From positions 1 to 32,803 of the IMG/VR virus record IMGVR_UViG_3300021371_000001: a stretch of 32,803 bases of DNA; one strand, given 5' to 3'. Below the pieces are notes generated by a model. That model did not search any database. It had not been told where the DNA came from and saw only the letters and a program-made list of their open reading frames with translations. Of this stretch, positions 15,765 through 27,858 are shown one piece after another. The stretch's first letter is position 1. Every line of letters begins with the position of its first letter. The position numbers were made by a program, and so were the translations under genes. This DNA is from a virus.

Positions 15765-16216
15765 TGGGTTATGTATTAGGCAAGCGCAGCTTGCAGAAGT
15801 TAGGCACTGTAGATGACAGGCTTCAACGCATTGTTTACTATGCTATTACTGTAACTAAACAAGACTTCTCTGTAATCTGTGGCATCCGTACCAAGGCTGA
15901 ACAGCGTAAGTTGGTTGCCTCTGGTGCATCGCAGACCATGAAGAGTAAACACTTGGATGGTTTGGCTGTTGATCTTATGGCCTACAATGGCGGCGGCAGA
16001 TGGGAGCTTAATCTATACGACGAGATAGCTGACGCTATGGCAGAGGGTGCTGGCTATGAAAAGGTTCCGTTAAGGTGGGGCGCAGCTTGGCATATCAATG
16101 ACATTGGTGGCTGCGATCTTACTGCCGAGGGTGCGATGAATGCTTATATAGATTTACGCAGATCGCAAGGTCGCAGACCATTTATAGATGCACCGCATTT
16201 TGAATTGATGGTATAA
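15764..16216 (+). CDS. Endolysin, M15-type peptidase (L-alanyl-D-glutamate / D-Ala peptidase)
   Basis: 150 residues. Zinc-binding residues of the VanY/M15 fold are visible: His63 and Asp70 in SKHLDGLAVDL, and His145 in the C-terminal PHFEL motif. The N-terminal VICGIRTKAEQ segment is also typical. The enzyme cuts peptide stems of peptidoglycan; the subclass cannot be set by eye. There is no signal peptide, so it should need the holin encoded just upstream. It is the last gene of the rightward arm, and its TAA runs into the A-tract of the leftward terminator. Confidence 0.92.
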   Translation: MGYVLGKRSLQKLGTVDDRLQRIVYYAITVTKQDFSVICGIRTKAEQRKLVASGASQTMKSKHLDGLAVDLMAYNGGGRWELNLYDEIADAMAEGAGYEKVPLRWGAAWHINDIGGCDLTAEGAMNAYIDLRRSQGRRPFIDAPHFELMV

Positions 16217-16254
16217 AAAAAGGGCGATGATGCAATGGAGAAACATCACCGCCC
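16215..16254 (-). terminator. Rho-independent terminator of the leftward arm
   Basis: On the minus strand an 11-bp stem (16244-16254 with 16222-16232, one A/C mismatch) with an 11-base loop is followed by seven T (bases 16215-16221 read as A on +). It lies about 90 bases beyond the stop of the last leftward gene. Stem arms on + read GGGCGATGATG and CATCACCGCCC. Confidence 0.82.
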
Positions 16255-16293
16255 AAGGGAGGAAGATCATAAGACTAGGGAGAAACTACAATC

Positions 16294-16330
16294 TTATGCG
16301 GGTGACTACGATATACCGCATAATTTTATA
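16294..16330 (+). terminator. Possible weak terminator of the rightward (late) arm
   Basis: A perfect 8-bp stem TTATGCGG / CCGCATAA (16294-16301 with 16316-16323) is followed by TTTTATA. The stem is short and the T-run poor, but it is placed 80 bases after the endolysin gene and faces the minus-strand terminator, so it would separate the converging arms. Confidence 0.5.
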
Positions 16331-16343
16331 CAACTCAATAGAC

Positions 16344-16721
16344 TTATATGTGCTTCCACCAATCGTCTGCTATCTCTGGTTCTACTGGCTCTTTGTAGTC
16401 AGCCGGTTCTAGCTTGTAAGCATAGAGTCCGTTGCCTTCGTATCGTCTTGATACAGTACGAAAGCCAAACTTCTTCTTGCGTAAGTCTCGCAATGCAGCG
16501 CTTGCACTTGCCTCTGGTGCGCCCGTTGCATTGCTCAACTCAGATAGCGTAACCCAATCATTTTCCTCCATGTATTGTTTTACTTTTTGTAACTGTGGCA
16601 TGAGCCTGTTGAAGTCACGCTCATGCACATAGTCATCTCCATCAAAGTGTGGTTCATCAGGATCAAATTCGTGTCTTACAGCAGGTTGTGATTCTATTCT
16701 TTCCCAATCTGTATTAGTCAT
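16344..16721 (-). CDS. Small winged-helix-like protein, last gene of the leftward arm
   Basis: The start at 16721 gives 125 residues and is backed by an AGGATAGGAG site; a longer start at 16769 (141 residues) forms a TAATG overlap with the SSB-like gene but lacks a good ribosome site. The middle region WVTLSELSNATGAPEASASAALRDLRKK, read in two parts, looks like a helix-turn-helix within a winged helix, followed by a wing with FGFRTVSRRY. The N-terminus is acidic. Proteins of this kind occur at the end of recombination modules in marine phages (from memory). Probable DNA-binding protein; target unknown. Confidence 0.72.
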   Translation of the reverse strand: MTNTDWERIESQPAVRHEFDPDEPHFDGDDYVHERDFNRLMPQLQKVKQYMEENDWVTLSELSNATGAPEASASAALRDLRKKKFGFRTVSRRYEGNGLYAYKLEPADYKEPVEPEIADDWWKHI

Positions 16722-16768: not shown

Positions 16769-17158
16769 TTAGAACGGAGGTATCTCGTCGTCAAAGTCTA
16801 TCTCAGGCACCTTGGCCTTATCAAGACTCTGAGTCTGTTGCTGTTGGCTTTCTGAGAGGGCGAGAGACATATAGTTGCCACCATCCTTAGACTTCTTCCA
16901 ACCTGCTAGTTTTAATTTGGTATTATCTACTGGCCCTGAGTAGTCAGGCGCTTTCTCATTGCTCTTCTTATCGTTCTCAAACATAACGCCTAGCTTTTGA
17001 TACACCTCAATGATCTTCATGCCAGCTTTTGTCTGATCTGCTACAAGTACGATCTTACTATCGTGACCCTGATTGTTGAGCTTGCCTTGTAGTATCATGC
17101 GCTGCGTATCAAATGGTTTGAATGCTGCACCTGAGTTAGTGTTGTCGTACTCTGCCAT
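16769..17158 (-). CDS. Single-stranded-DNA-binding-like protein with SSB-type acidic tail
   Basis: 129 residues. It ends in DFDDEIPPF, very like the C-terminal tip by which SSB proteins recruit replication and repair partners. The core segment GPVDNTKLKLAGWKKSKDGG followed by NYMSLALSE resembles DUF736/OB-type small phage proteins. AGGAG lies 8 bases ahead of ATG 17158. Gene order (nuclease, annealing protein, then this one) matches phage recombination cassettes in which an SSB works with the annealase. The OB fold is an inference; the tail is directly visible. Confidence 0.72.
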   Translation of the reverse strand: MAEYDNTNSGAAFKPFDTQRMILQGKLNNQGHDSKIVLVADQTKAGMKIIEVYQKLGVMFENDKKSNEKAPDYSGPVDNTKLKLAGWKKSKDGGNYMSLALSESQQQQTQSLDKAKVPEIDFDDEIPPF

Positions 17159-21746: not shown

Positions 21747-22583
21747 TTACGCTAGTTCTAACCATGACTTGTGTTTCATGGCCTTGATGATGGCTGCTTC
21801 ACGAATACGTCTCGCATTCTCTGGCGACTTGGCTTCGTCCGTGTGTGTAGCCCATGATGTTAGACAGTTATACAAAGCCCACTTGGTATTACCTAACTGC
21901 GCTCGCTCATTATCAAAGCCACCCAGTAGATTCTGTAACTGCCTGTCATTAAACTTAGCATGACTTGCCTTGTGTTGTACGTTACATACAGTCTTTTTAA
22001 AGAATGACTCTGCTTGTTCGGTAGTGACAGGTGTACTTCTGTATGCTTCCCATACTCCCTTGCTATTAAGGAACATTTCAAGACCATCAGCTATCTTATG
22101 AGCCGAACTATCTACGCTTACGTTAGTCGTATGCTTGGCCCATGTCTTGGACACGGTTTCGGCTGTAGTGCAGCCATTGAGACACCACAAACGAAAGCCT
22201 TCTGCTGATTGTTGGAAGGCCCAGCTACCATCATAGCTATTGTATGCTTGAACACGGTACTGAATGTAATCATTTACCTCAGCGTCCTCTAACATAATGT
22301 CGTTGAACAATACCTCAAGCCGCATCTTAGCGCCGTTGTCTGCAACGTGTGTCTTAACGCTGTAGTCTGAGCTAATGTCAGCCTGTTTGATTGAGTCCAT
22401 GATTGAATTGACCGCATCACTGTGCGTGATTGGTTTATACTTAGACTTGTGAGTGCCAAGCGATTCACCTGTGTCAGTGCGTATTAAGTTACGCATCTTA
22501 GGTATCTCATTGCCGCGCATGTCTAAGCATGGCTCCATGTCAATCGCAAAGTCCCAGTCTGTAGTGTTCATAGTATCTAACAT
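21747..22583 (-). CDS. DUF932 family phage/plasmid-like protein
   Basis: 278 residues from ATG 22583 (GGAG 6 bases upstream). Family features visible: the N-terminal LIRTDTGESLGTHKSKYKPI segment (phage proteins 'remember' a G-x-V/H-x-x-x-Y pattern here), a middle part with a CLNGCT motif and the KHTTNVS stretch. DUF932 proteins are common on plasmids and phages with unknown function, often near replication or recombination genes. It heads the long leftward block; a possible promoter lies upstream. Function not established. Confidence 0.8.
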   Translation of the reverse strand: MLDTMNTTDWDFAIDMEPCLDMRGNEIPKMRNLIRTDTGESLGTHKSKYKPITHSDAVNSIMDSIKQADISSDYSVKTHVADNGAKMRLEVLFNDIMLEDAEVNDYIQYRVQAYNSYDGSWAFQQSAEGFRLWCLNGCTTAETVSKTWAKHTTNVSVDSSAHKIADGLEMFLNSKGVWEAYRSTPVTTEQAESFFKKTVCNVQHKASHAKFNDRQLQNLLGGFDNERAQLGNTKWALYNCLTSWATHTDEAKSPENARRIREAAIIKAMKHKSWLELA

Positions 22584-22744
22584 TTCAATCTCCATTGATT
22601 GCATTTAAAATTAAAATGACCCGCTATCACAACAGATCATCACATCACACACACACACCCCCTCTCCCCTCACTCTCAGAGAAGGGCCTCACCGCAAGCG
22701 CAGGGTGTGATGTTGTGCGCCTACTGTCCTATCGTAACGCTGTA
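22584..22744. other. Intergenic stretch with CA/GT and pyrimidine tract
   Basis: No gene is supported. Bases about 22643-22680 hold a (CA)n run followed by C-rich pyrimidines; on the minus strand this is a GA/G-rich tract followed by GT repeats, upstream of the DUF932 promoter region. A similar G-rich purine tract lies on the + strand at 24179-24203. Confidence 0.5.
22600..22645 (-). promoter_or_regulatory. Possible promoter ahead of the DUF932 gene
   Basis: On the minus strand TTGTGA, a 17-base spacer and TTTAAA occur just upstream of the ribosome site. The match to sigma-70 is only moderate. The AT-rich stretch before the first gene of the block makes the place plausible. Confidence 0.35.
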
Positions 22745-22822
22745 TTACCAGAGAAGGATAAACAACGTTACTACTATGATGGCGATACCACCTAGCCAAT
22801 CGTCCCATTTCGGATATCTCAT
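22745..22822 (-). CDS. 25-residue single-span membrane peptide
   Basis: A short gene with AAGGAG eight bases ahead of ATG 22822. The peptide has an N-terminal polar, Trp-rich part (RYPKWDDWLGG) and then a purely hydrophobic segment (IAIIVVTLFILLW) to the end. Trp residues at both membrane edges are typical for a real transmembrane helix. It is alone between two hairpins and the DUF932 gene. Function unknown; small phage membrane peptides often affect host membrane proteins or block superinfection, but nothing here shows that. Confidence 0.62.
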   Translation of the reverse strand: MRYPKWDDWLGGIAIIVVTLFILLW

Positions 22823-22842
22823 TGTCCTATCTCCTTGCCAGA

Positions 22843-22862
22843 TTCGCCGCGCCAGCGGCGAA
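22843..22862. terminator. Strong hairpin with A/T flank
   Basis: Perfect 8-bp stem TTCGCCGC-GCCA-GCGGCGAA. On + it is followed by AAAATTTT, on minus by no T-run. It may work with the neighbouring hairpin to end leftward transcription, or protect an RNA end. Confidence 0.45.
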
Positions 22863-22895
22863 AAAATTTTGGGGCCACCGATTAAGGCAGCCCCA
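22861..22895 (-). terminator. Terminator-like hairpin after the 186-residue gene
   Basis: On the minus strand a 10-bp stem with two wobble pairs (TGGGGCTGCC / GGTGGCCCCA, loop TTAATC) spans 22895-22870 and is followed by AAAA then six T. It lies 24 bases after the stop of the 186-residue gene. The membrane peptide gene downstream would then depend on read-through. Confidence 0.6.
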
Positions 22896-22918
22896 TAGGG
22901 TTTTGTTATGTGGTACTG

Positions 22919-23479
22919 TTATGCTGCTGCTTGCTCCCATGTGGACAGGTTCTTTTTAGCTGTCTTGTCATCCGCTGTTTTGTCGGGGTCATCGTCATGC
23001 GTTTCTTGCAGATCAAATGCCTTGAACTCTTTGCCAGTGTTGGCGTGGTGCACATCGGCAAGCGCATTAAATAGCTGTTGCGCTAACAATAGCTCACTGT
23101 GTAGCTGGTCGCATTTGGTTTCAACGCGCTGCTTATCGCCGTCATACTTATCACGCTCAAACATCTTGATAAGTTGGATATTGTGCCGCAACTCTGCCTT
23201 GATACCAATAAACTTTTTAACGCGCTCGCCGTTTACTTTGGTGTAATAGCTGGTGGATTTGCTATTAATCCGACGGTTAAGGCTATTCAGCAAGCCAGTA
23301 ACAACGGCGTACTGACCAGCGCTGTGCGTGTTCCAAGTCTTCTGTTCTCTGCCATATGTAATCGGATCATAGAAATAAGATGACAAGCTAGCTGCCAGAT
23401 TTAACGGCGATACTTCGGTTGCGTTTGCTGCATCAATCGCATCGGCTACATTCTGCGGAATATTCGTAGATTTAGACAT
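22919..23479 (-). CDS. Unknown early protein, first gene left of the noncoding RNA
   Basis: 186 residues from ATG 23479, chosen for GGAG 6 bases upstream; the upstream frame extension to 23527 would cover the promoter. The N-terminus (SKSTNIPQNVADAIDAANAT) is helical; the middle is basic (NRRINSKSTSYYTKVNGERV), and the C-terminus is very acidic (DDDPDKTADDKTAKK). It has its own promoter-like signals (TTGGTT-17-TGTAAT) and a terminator-like hairpin, so it seems to be a separate one-gene unit transcribed early. No family is recognised. Confidence 0.72.
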   Translation of the reverse strand: MSKSTNIPQNVADAIDAANATEVSPLNLAASLSSYFYDPITYGREQKTWNTHSAGQYAVVTGLLNSLNRRINSKSTSYYTKVNGERVKKFIGIKAELRHNIQLIKMFERDKYDGDKQRVETKCDQLHSELLLAQQLFNALADVHHANTGKEFKAFDLQETHDDDPDKTADDKTAKKNLSTWEQAAA

Positions 23480-23498
23480 AGTTCTCTCCATATATAAT
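23470..23498 (+). promoter_or_regulatory. Promoter candidate for the structured RNA
   Basis: TTTAGA (23471-23476), a 16-base spacer and a perfect TATAAT (23493-23498) on the + strand. Transcription would start near 23505, about 45 bases before the first stem of the structured region. It overlaps the divergent promoter and the start of the leftward gene. Confidence 0.55.
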
Positions 23499-23527
23499 AT
23501 TACATTTGATCCAACCAACTGAACCAA
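23499..23527 (-). promoter_or_regulatory. Promoter candidate for the leftward 186-residue gene
   Basis: On the minus strand TTGGTT (23527-23522), a 17-base spacer and TGTAAT (23504-23499; five of six matches to the -10 consensus). The leader before ATG 23479 would be about 13-15 bases and carries GGAG. Confidence 0.55.
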
Positions 23528-24080
23528 ACCAGATTTGTTCCGGCCAATTTTCGGCGGGAACAGGGACCAAGCTCACTTATGGCTCAACCCACTTGGGCGG
23601 CCTCCTTAGGCCGTGTATGTCTAGTACCAATTTGAAGCAAGTTGAGCCGCGTCTGCGGTCAACCTTGCCATCGCGATGGAATCTTAGATTGGGGTCGGCC
23701 TGCTTCTTCAAGCAGGCAGGCGTCAATGTAAGACCGGAAATTGGTACTAGATATACATTGAGCCATCAGTTAGTGCCGTGTCCCCCGCCGACAATTTGTC
23801 GTAACAAATATGCATATATTTATATATTTAATATTCTTTAGCGGTAAGGTCAACGGAATCTCGCAAGATTCCTTGAAAGAGATTGCCCGCGCAAGGCGCG
23901 GTTAACAGCAATCACACTATCTAAAAAGATCAATATGTACGGGCCATAGCCCGTTCAATAGCCCCGCAGGGTTTTGACTACCGTAAGGAATAGCCCTTGT
24001 ACTCACCCTTTAGGGTGGACACTTCTTCAGTGTCCATTCATGAGTGGAAGGTTAACAGCTCCACCTTAAGAAGAGTAAAC
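23505..24080 (+). ncRNA. Large highly structured noncoding RNA candidate
   Basis: No credible protein is encoded here. The sequence folds by eye into two multibranched domains. Domain 1 (about 23551-23791): nested long-range helices 23551-23558/23784-23791 (TCGGCGGG/CCCGCCGA), 23579-23587/23758-23766 and a 20-bp helix 23614-23633/23738-23757, with hairpins at 23598-23613, 23637-23668, 23668-23679 and 23682-23733. Domain 2 (about 23845-24068): closing helix TAAGGT/ACCTTA, hairpins at 23855-23872, 23881-23913 and 23939-23954, and a three-way junction at 24001-24045. G23619-U23752 and U23972-G23993 pair only in a + strand RNA. Known large phage RNAs (GOLLD, ROOL) have this size and ornate style; membership is not shown. 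It may instead be a very long structured leader of the terminase operon. Confidence 0.7.
23797..23835 (+). promoter_or_regulatory. AT-rich linker between the two RNA domains; possible internal promoter
   Basis: TTGTCG, 17 bases and TTTATA give a fair sigma-70 spacing, and the stretch includes TATGCATA and ATATATTTATATAT. A hairpin ATTTGT-CGTA-ACAAAT (23794-23809) overlaps it. It may be a flexible RNA linker or a promoter for domain 2 alone. Confidence 0.3.
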
Positions 24081-24129: not shown

Positions 24130-24210
24130 AACATAGGATAGGATAGGATTGACAGACCTGATGCAGCGCTGCTAACCGTGGGGGGGAGAGGGTGAGGGGG
24201 GGCAATAGCA
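24130..24210. other. Repeat- and G-rich stretch ahead of terS; possible packaging site
   Basis: Holds three tandem TAGGA units (24134-24148), a consensus -35-like TTGACA (24149-24154) without a good -10, the palindrome GCAGCGCTGC (24163-24172) and a G-tract of two GGGGGGG runs with G-pairs between (24179-24203), able to form a G-quadruplex. Iterated short repeats next to terS are usual for packaging-initiation sites, so this is a cos/pac candidate; unproven. Confidence 0.4.
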
Positions 24211-24220
24211 GGATATAGAT

Positions 24221-24592
24221 ATGTTAGAACAACGTAAACTAACCAAGAAACAAACGTGTCTGGTGGATACGCTCGTAGCGACAGGATGCACATTGCGCGA
24301 AGCTGCTACAGAAGCAGGATACGCCGAAGGTGAATCTGGAAGAGTAACAGCAAGCAAAACGATACGCTTACCGCATGTGCAGTCTTACATGATGCAACGG
24401 GTCAACGAACAGCTTGGTATGAATGCTACTGTGGCTGCAGCACGTGTTATGAACTTGGCTACGGGAGCTAGATCAGAGTACGTTCAGCTTGAGGCTAGTA
24501 AAGACATATTAGATCGCGCTGGATTTAAGCCGATAGATCGCAGCCAAGTGCAAGTTGCTGGGGACATTCGTGTTAGCATTGACCTGAGTTAG
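24221..24592 (+). CDS. Terminase small subunit
   Basis: 123 residues. Near the N-terminus KLTKKQTCLVDTLVATGCTL followed by REAATEAGYAEGESGRVTAS is the helix-turn-helix typical of phage terminase small subunits (Terminase_2-like), and the C-terminus VAGDIRVSIDLS also fits. It recognises the packaging site and loads DNA to the large subunit. AGGA lies 7 bases ahead of ATG 24221. First gene of the late arm, just after the structured RNA. The large subunit follows 1.7 kb later with a block of small basic genes between them, an unusual separation. Confidence 0.85.
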   Translation: MLEQRKLTKKQTCLVDTLVATGCTLREAATEAGYAEGESGRVTASKTIRLPHVQSYMMQRVNEQLGMNATVAAARVMNLATGARSEYVQLEASKDILDRAGFKPIDRSQVQVAGDIRVSIDLS

Positions 24593-26160: not shown

Positions 26161-26342
26161 GTTTTATATCTACCCTTTCCCTAGCAGAGCTAGAAGTACT
26201 TAGGCAGATAGTTAGAAAGGTTCATCTAACGTATGTGCCGCTGGACTTTGCTACTGACAGGGAATGCGATAAGATGATTGATGGCATGGCCCCTGAGACT
26301 GTTGATAGAATGTTGAGGTTTGGCAGACAGTACTGTGGTTGA
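26157..26342 (+). CDS. Small helical protein ahead of the terminase large subunit
   Basis: 61 residues; ATGA overlap at the start. Helical, acidic in contrast to its neighbours (FATDRECDKMIDGMAPETVD). Its last codons overlap the start of terL (GTGGTTGA), so it may couple translation to the ATPase. No family recognised. Confidence 0.68.
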   Translation: MSFISTLSLAELEVLRQIVRKVHLTYVPLDFATDRECDKMIDGMAPETVDRMLRFGRQYCG

Positions 26343-27858
26343 TTTTAAATACAAACCAGACGGAGAAACGCTTAAGGCGTTTATGAAAGACAATACATTC
26401 TTTCGTGGTATTCGCGGTCCTGTAGGTTCTGGCAAATCTGTTGGTTGCTGCATTGAGGTATTCCGCAGGGCGCTTGGTCAGGAAAAGAATAGCAAGGGTA
26501 TACGCAGAAGCCGATGGGCAATCATTCGTAATACCAACCCGCAGCTTAGAACCACTACTATTAAGACTTGGCTTGATTGGTTTCCCGAAGCTGATTGGGG
26601 TAAGTTTACTTGGTCGGTTCCGTACACTCATCACATTAAAAAGGGTGACATTGATCTTGAGGTTTTGTTCTTAGCTCTTGATAGGCCCGAAGACGTTAAG
26701 AAGTTATTGTCATTAGAGCTTACTGGCATTTGGGTTAATGAAGCTAGGGAAATACCCAAGTCTATTATGGATGCGTGTACTATGCGCGTTGGTCGCTTTC
26801 CTTCTATGCGTGAGGGAGGGCCGTCTTGGACAGGAGTTATTGCTGATACCAATGCACCAGAGGAAGATCACTGGTGGCCGATCATGTCTGGTGAGGTTCC
26901 GATTCCAGATCACATACCGCGAGAGCAAGCCAAGATGCTGGTTAAGCCTGACAACTGGTCATTCTTTACGCAACCCGCTGGTATGATTGAAGTTAAGAAC
27001 GACGAGAACGAAGTGGATGCCTACAAGCCTAGTAAGAGCGCAGAAAATACCAAGAACATGATGGGGTCTTATTATCCTAATCTTATTCAAGGTAAGACTA
27101 AAAGCTGGATAGATGTTTATGTTATGAATCGCTTGGGTTCTATACAGGACGGTAAGCCAATCTATCCTATGTTTGTTACTGACACACACGTTGCTAAAGA
27201 GGAAATCCCTGTTGCTGCTGGTTATCCTTTGTATATTGGTTTGGATTTTGGTCTAACCCCTGCGGCTACTATGGGTCAAAAGGTTAGAGGTAGATGGTTA
27301 GTACAGGATGAAGTCGTTGCGTTTGACATGGGTATTGTTAGGTTTGCGGAAGTTCTACGTGAGCAGATTGCTACTAGATTTTCTCAGTGTTCTGAGGTTA
27401 TTATTTATGGTGATCCTGCGGGTGACTTTCGGGCGCAGACCGACGAATCTACCCCGTTTCACATACTTAGAGGTGCTGGCCTTAGAGCATTCCCCGCCCC
27501 GTCTAATTCCGTGGATTTGCGCCTTGAGTCGGTATCTTCGCAGCTTAACAAAATGACAGAAGGCAAACCCGCTTTTCTAGTAGATCGCCGTTGTTCTCAG
27601 CTTATCAAAGGCTTTGAGGGTGGATACCAGTATCGCCGCATGGAAGTATCTGGCGAGAGATACGCAGATAAGCCTGACAAGAATATGTTTAGCCACATTC
27701 ATGATGCGCTGCAGTATATGCTGTTGGGCGCTGGCGAAGGTCGGGCCTTGATGAATAATCAAAAAGCAGCTAGGCCATCTGTTGCTAAGAGGGACTTTGA
27801 TGTATTTGCCAAGCGTAGTAGTCCCAAGCGTAGACAGGGACTATGGGCGCGTATGTAA
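26335..27858 (+). CDS. Terminase large subunit
   Basis: 507 residues from GTG 26335, which overlaps the previous stop as GTGGTTGA; TTG 26320 would add five residues. No ATG is available before the conserved KPDGETLKAFM start. Walker A is GPVGSGKS (about 28-35), Walker B is in LTGIWVNEARE (about 130), and the RNase-H-like nuclease has Asp in GLDFGLTP, Asp in YGDPAGDF and Asp in the SHIHDALQY segment. It is the packaging ATPase and cuts genome ends. Weak or non-ATG start may keep its level low. Its stop begins a copy of the recurring late motif. Confidence 0.95.
   Translation: MVDFKYKPDGETLKAFMKDNTFFRGIRGPVGSGKSVGCCIEVFRRALGQEKNSKGIRRSRWAIIRNTNPQLRTTTIKTWLDWFPEADWGKFTWSVPYTHHIKKGDIDLEVLFLALDRPEDVKKLLSLELTGIWVNEAREIPKSIMDACTMRVGRFPSMREGGPSWTGVIADTNAPEEDHWWPIMSGEVPIPDHIPREQAKMLVKPDNWSFFTQPAGMIEVKNDENEVDAYKPSKSAENTKNMMGSYYPNLIQGKTKSWIDVYVMNRLGSIQDGKPIYPMFVTDTHVAKEEIPVAAGYPLYIGLDFGLTPAATMGQKVRGRWLVQDEVVAFDMGIVRFAEVLREQIATRFSQCSEVIIYGDPAGDFRAQTDESTPFHILRGAGLRAFPAPSNSVDLRLESVSSQLNKMTEGKPAFLVDRRCSQLIKGFEGGYQYRRMEVSGERYADKPDKNMFSHIHDALQYMLLGAGEGRALMNNQKAARPSVAKRDFDVFAKRSSPKRRQGLWARM

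Follow-up and report, generated by a model that had tools for sequence, protein, structure and literature searches.

A folded noncoding region upstream of the terminase genes of a 32.8-kb phage shares a structural module with plasmid Frpo regions

The Frpo sites of conjugative plasmids, which are single-stranded-DNA (ssDNA) promoter and primer sites, fold as ssDNA and drive early gene expression in recipient cells (PMC9849209, PMC7690428, PMC11541004), and in the F plasmid both Frpo1 and Frpo2 are required if genes on the incoming ssDNA are to be expressed early (PMC9849209). In the passages of these three papers on which we draw, such sites are described for conjugative elements only, plasmids among them, and the three-way-junction module reported below is not described. 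A second point of comparison is given by the complementary-strand origins of the Microviridae (ssi, G4-type), which are structured noncoding stretches of the virion strand, and a third by GOLLD, ROOL and other giant phage RNAs. The DNA analysed here (the window, the whole stretch of 32,803 nt) contains a large structured noncoding region beside its terminase genes, which an earlier note had taken for a noncoding RNA of the GOLLD/ROOL kind. Our results show instead that the best-conserved piece of this region matches a structural module found beside plasmid Frpo sites, and on balance we favour the reading that the region corresponds, in a phage, to the Frpo/ssi folded-DNA regions of plasmids, which would serve the (-) early operon, prime replication, or both.

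The region and its genome setting

The window looks like a complete phage genome; direct repeats of 127 bp at its ends leave a unique length of 32,676, and its large terminase subunit (TerL) is 65% identical to that of Pelagibacter phage EXVC031P Hodr. A noncoding gap of about 740 bases separates a (-) early operon from a divergent (+) late operon. The first gene of the early operon (22919–23479, - strand) falls in no family; the same operon also encodes a DUF932 protein (21747–22604, - strand; TIGR03299-like; Pfam PF06067, E 2.5e-17; YgeB of F, E 3.6e-53), a YqaJ/RecE-type exonuclease, and an SSB-like protein with the acidic C-terminus DDEIPPF (16769–17158, - strand; PHROG 18154, single-strand DNA-binding protein, E 3.6e-7). 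The late operon opens on the + strand with the gene for the terminase small subunit, terS (24221–24592; PHROG 2538, E 5.6e-13), and terL lies at 26320–27858 on the same strand (PHROG 2, E 4.3e-20). Among the subset of window genes scanned, no DNA polymerase, primase or helicase was recognised. Just upstream of terS the + strand has a G-rich tract, GGGGGGGAGAGGGTGAGGGGGGG (24180–24202), and similar tracts, each followed by terS, are seen in four podovirus relatives (L036, L060, L072 and L022).

Between the two operons, the 576 nt at 23505–24080 (+ strand) fold far better than expected by chance. As a + strand RNA they reach -230.7 kcal/mol (z -10.45, equalled by none of 100 shuffles), against z -8.16 for the opposite strand; folded as ssDNA, the + and - strands give z -12.7 and -9.9, so that relative to shuffles the region folds better as DNA than as RNA. 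The earlier note was therefore right that some 575 bases here are noncoding and elaborately folded and that the + strand is the structured one, and the three hairpins it quoted are present, starting at 23855 (7 bp), 23698 (8 bp) and 24016 (8 bp). The 111-aa TTG-start frame at 23506–23841 matches no protein family, and it sits over the part that is replaced in near-identical phages; we rejected a protein-coding reading of it. At the gathering score no Rfam covariance model, GOLLD and ROOL included, matches the window or 13 related loci, and below that score permissive thresholds give chance-level matches only. Searches of cultured phages returned no similarity to the whole region and, with module queries, one or two Microviridae records and nothing else, and we found no literature on an RNA at this position in phages.

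The region is a mosaic of interchangeable hairpin modules. Domain 1 (about 23530–23812, + strand) is a long branched arm adjoining the (-) gene start and built on the inverted repeats 23530–23558/23784–23812, 23572–23587/23758–23773 and 23614–23633/23738–23757; it occupies the place of the promoter stem-loop in plasmid Frpo regions and has no sequence similarity to Frpo2 or the promoter stem-loop of F. At its apex is a cluster of hairpins (23634–23736, + strand) for which L003, a phage about 97% identical to the window over most of its length, has a hairpin of roughly 30 nt. An AT-rich spacer (23813–23845, no strand), conserved in L003, leads to domain 2 (about 23846–24063), whose hairpins at 23846–23990 (+ strand) are wholly different in L003 and are swapped between phages. 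One of them, the UUAACA-bulge hairpin GATTGC-CC...GG-TTAACA-GCAATC (23881–23913, + strand), recurs in L060 with different pairs. The remainder of domain 2 is a class-A mobile module, TAGCCC...GGTTAACAGCTCCA (23991–24063, + strand), which has sharp ends across unrelated contigs with unrelated flanks.

A further phage, L168, combines a domain 1 of the window type with a domain 2 of the L003 type, and in other relatives identified by TerL the same place is filled by structured regions of quite different sequence. The two multibranched domains of the earlier note are thus both present, but they assort independently among phages and the 576 nt do not form a single conserved structure. Given this modularity, and since different modules are found in a phage 97% identical to the window, the idea of a lineage-conserved giant RNA fails; GOLLD, ROOL and their like share with the region its size, multibranched style and noncoding phage location, but the window's region has no Rfam match and is modular and mobile, and its module lies antisense to genes in plasmids.

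A three-way-junction module in phages and plasmids

Within the class-A module lies a three-way-junction core (23997–24050, + strand), which comprises an ACUCA/UGAGU stem, a CCC/GGG hairpin, an RAGAC..GGCUY hairpin and a UUCA linker. The arrangement ACTCACCC..GGG..(hairpin)..TTCATGAGT is common to the window and to two further loci (L031 and L060), and scanning IMG/VR for this pattern yielded 68 contigs, the majority of which have the fold; nine loci among these first 68 matches, having neither the fold nor a fitting context, were judged to be chance. The core is described by a covariance model, R1, built only from viral sequences, which scores the window at 56 bits (E 9e-14; E-values of R1 are rough, its calibration having been short) and detects variants that the pattern misses, ACCCA/TGGGT of L003 for instance. 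In all, the module was located in more than 60 viral contigs; those from IMG/VR are metagenomic, and several near-identical ones were collapsed by sequence only.

Covariation, which the earlier note had named as a check on its fold, bears out the structure of the module. In an alignment of 37 sequences 97% of cells are paired, changes on both sides of a pair number 106 as against 33 in shuffles, and the covariation score is 0.389, compared with 0.124 for shuffled alignments and at most 0.108 for slid structures. Since the search pattern itself fixed some core letters of this alignment, their invariance is no evidence, and it is the covariation in the other pairs that counts. Addition of plasmid and Microviridae sequences raises the double-sided cells to 124, with 39 in shuffles, a count that leans towards the model because the alignment was fitted to R1. 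Selection on the structure of the module is supported by these data.

The distribution of the module is broad but patchy. It is carried by 7 of the 22 TerL relatives examined (those with terS and upstream sequence present, the window counted), by several other phage types and by a few bacterial genomes or bins; in Hodr, the nearest cultured relative, the part searched has no R1 match. Two Microviridae have it on the virion-sense strand, L215 in the intergenic space that separates the scaffolding gene from the replication-initiator gene, and L123, whose genes include those for a Phage_F capsid and a G2P-like Rep, in canonical form upstream of rep; they resemble the complementary-strand origins in this respect, but the origin of phage G4 itself gives no significant R1 match. 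In another of the Microviridae (L202, MG945641) class-B outer arms, GCGTCAGGGATA...AGCCCGCCCGGACGCCC, enclose an inner part of another kind and lie on the strand opposite to that of the annotated genes. The Rhodobacteraceae genome of Rubrimonas cliftonensis (L157, L153) holds three canonical modules, of which two share a contig and are separated by 6 kb; an ORF of this contig resembles DUF736 by eye. In a second phage group (L094, L099, L104, L110, L112) large ORFs of 1144–1249 aa lie downstream of the module; those tested (L094 and L112) have no PHROG match, and that of L094 matches no Pfam family.

A search of plasmids with a consensus of GC-rich phage copies gave 502 records; the ones examined include leading regions that adjoin ssb, psiB and antirestriction genes, and there R1 confirms the module. 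Between 48 and 68 kb of the F plasmid there are exactly two R1 matches, 58111–58161 and 63499–63549, both on the (-) strand and lying upstream of ssb and of ygeA/ygeB; these places are named Frpo2 and Frpo1 respectively in PMC9849209, the gene names having been matched by means of the annotation and of the position described in that paper. R100 likewise has matches at exactly two sites in its first 50 kb (1–50 kb), and E-values on the two plasmids range from about 1e-7 to 3e-6. In F the two Frpo regions share a 559-nt block that is 89% identical, and the module lies inside it, at the promoter-distal end. Masai and Arai reportedly delimited a functional Frpo of 328 nt; the module is placed here relative to the 559-nt block instead. 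Relatives of the copy in a Klebsiella IncF plasmid occur in 4,193 of 72,556 plasmids, a figure based on similarity to that single copy together with about 50 nt of flanking sequence.

The window module has the location that is characteristic of Frpo sites, upstream of leading or early genes and on their template strand: in F it stands about 482–485 nt upstream of ssb, and in the window 518 nt upstream of the start of the (-) gene at 23479 (about 480–520 nt from the first gene in the two systems). A DUF932 gene follows in both, as ygeB after Frpo1 of F and in the (-) operon of the window. Frpo regions are also multi-hairpin DNA, as is the window's region, but beyond the three-way-junction module the window cannot be aligned with the Frpo regions of F and R100. 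In two Frpo-like regions of ColIb-P9 the promoter stem-loop is kept, as is a hairpin block of 68 bp, and a different hairpin stands where F has the module (L219, 27836–27952 and 34869–34985); this hairpin may represent a second module family. The module is consequently not essential to every Frpo, and its exchange between F and ColIb-P9 is of the same kind as that between the window and L003.

DNA or RNA, service or self-propagation

Several of these properties would also suit a structured RNA, if the + strand were transcribed and its modules acted as trans-acting small RNAs (decoys for a host protein or a defence protein, for example) or as leader of the late operon. The covariation is strong and strand-specific and includes G-U pairs (43 GU cells as against 15 AC cells), the + strand folds better than the - strand, and in the relatives with terS the module lies 94–284 nt upstream of that gene and on its strand. 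However, the copies in F and R100 lie antisense to the gene that follows, and in several relatives a promoter-like sequence containing TTGACA comes 3' of the module, which would leave the module outside the late transcript. Several siphophage-size genomes of 43–50 kb, whose genes were called with a home-made caller, hold 4 to 11 copies each, at gene ends and on both strands, frequently in inverted pairs that enclose a gene and point outward, and some copies are translated in frame as protein termini; an orientation not tied to transcription argues for recognition as DNA. Within this set (L174–L191, G006–G019), the genes enclosed by outward inverted pairs include DNA-methyltransferase-like ones (G010 22645–23622, G011 15948–16718).

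The loops of the GC-rich copies also speak against RNA. In 79 such elements C(GNA)G triloops close 54 of 157 hairpins, where shuffles lead one to expect about 2 and E. coli rRNA has none in 54, while C(GNRA)G occurs once and C(TTCG)G never. GNA and GNNA loops closed by C-G form extraordinarily stable mini-hairpins in DNA (PMC4686876), whereas the loops of RNA are dominated by GNRA and UNCG (PMC5815330). The AT-richer hairpins of the window itself have no GNA loop signature. Taking both sides together, we regard an RNA as an unlikely explanation, if one that still deserves some weight.

Rickettsia palindromic elements, REP/RAYT elements and integron attC sites may be comparable as dispersed folded palindromes at gene ends, and reading through in frame, seen in some phage copies of the module, would be a further likeness. 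One could picture a selfish family of hairpins that moves between replicons as folded ssDNA and does the carrier no service, the site upstream of terS being one landing place. Several observations favour this: the window and L111, an otherwise unrelated contig of 8.8 kb, have in common a single element of 143 nt, 86% identical (23922–24063 in the window, class-A module included), and no protein similarity; modules are swapped among near-identical phages; inverted pairs flank genes in several genomes; and in G009 one gene has an element directly against each end, with none beside the homologous genes of five further contigs. Against this, copies in the same genome mostly differ from one another and yet retain the covariation of their pairs, a sign of selection for function and a contrast to the recent identical copies of mobile palindromes, and the module recurs upstream of terS and of Frpo-controlled genes. 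Its phage carriers have neither a common recombinase nor any gene shared by all, and a Y1 transposase is found in none of 17 phage records and in one bacterial genome only. A purely selfish family thus appears improbable to us. A packaging or replication-origin site (pac/cos or ori), read as DNA by the terminase or a phage initiator, would explain why the region adjoins terS, where the early operon gives way to the late one, but is very hard to reconcile with a module that occurs in plasmids and Microviridae lacking a terminase and in only a minority of the close relatives.

A proposed folded-DNA switch

The simplest explanation for the agreement in template strand, distance and DUF932 gene would be a region of the Frpo/ssi type: the window's region shares a module with Frpo and probably works like it, and by analogy we assign it to the (-) early operon as an element acting in the form of folded DNA. 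The + strand, once single-stranded or extruded, would fold into the multi-hairpin structure, and host RNA polymerase, possibly with other single-strand-initiation proteins, would take the folded strand as template. Transcription would then run leftward into the early operon, with its unknown-family gene, DUF932 gene, recombination genes and SSB-like gene, and/or the transcripts might supply primers for replication of a phage in which polymerase, primase and helicase went unrecognised.

We do not file the region as a proven Frpo, for four reasons: the genome is of the dsDNA type, promoter boxes could not be located, there is no similarity outside the module, and presence is patchy. The window is by its terminase genes a dsDNA-type phage and not a plasmid T-strand on entry, so a single-stranded stage must be assumed. 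It has no recognisable promoter stem-loop, and a consensus scan of the - strand for contiguous -35 and -10 boxes gave no sigma-70-like site. The Frpo-like regions of ColIb-P9 without the module, its presence in so few of the TerL relatives, the related arms of MG945641 on the strand opposite the genes and the missing GNA signature in the window's hairpins also weigh against a Frpo-like reading.

More tentatively still, and with rather less confidence than we place in the reading of this one locus, we propose that a folded-DNA module family with a conserved three-way junction is common to conjugative plasmids and to phages of both the ssDNA and the dsDNA kind as a signal read by the host on single-stranded or extruded DNA, and that promoters or primer sites in single-stranded form would hence launch early transcription or replication in some tailed dsDNA phages. 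Whatever its function in each carrier, the R1 covariance model is a tool for locating such sites across mobile elements. Frpo sites are a known route for the expression of plasmid genes before the DNA becomes double-stranded, and if dsDNA phages carry a switch of the same type, they may expose single-stranded DNA early in infection and share an entry programme with plasmids.
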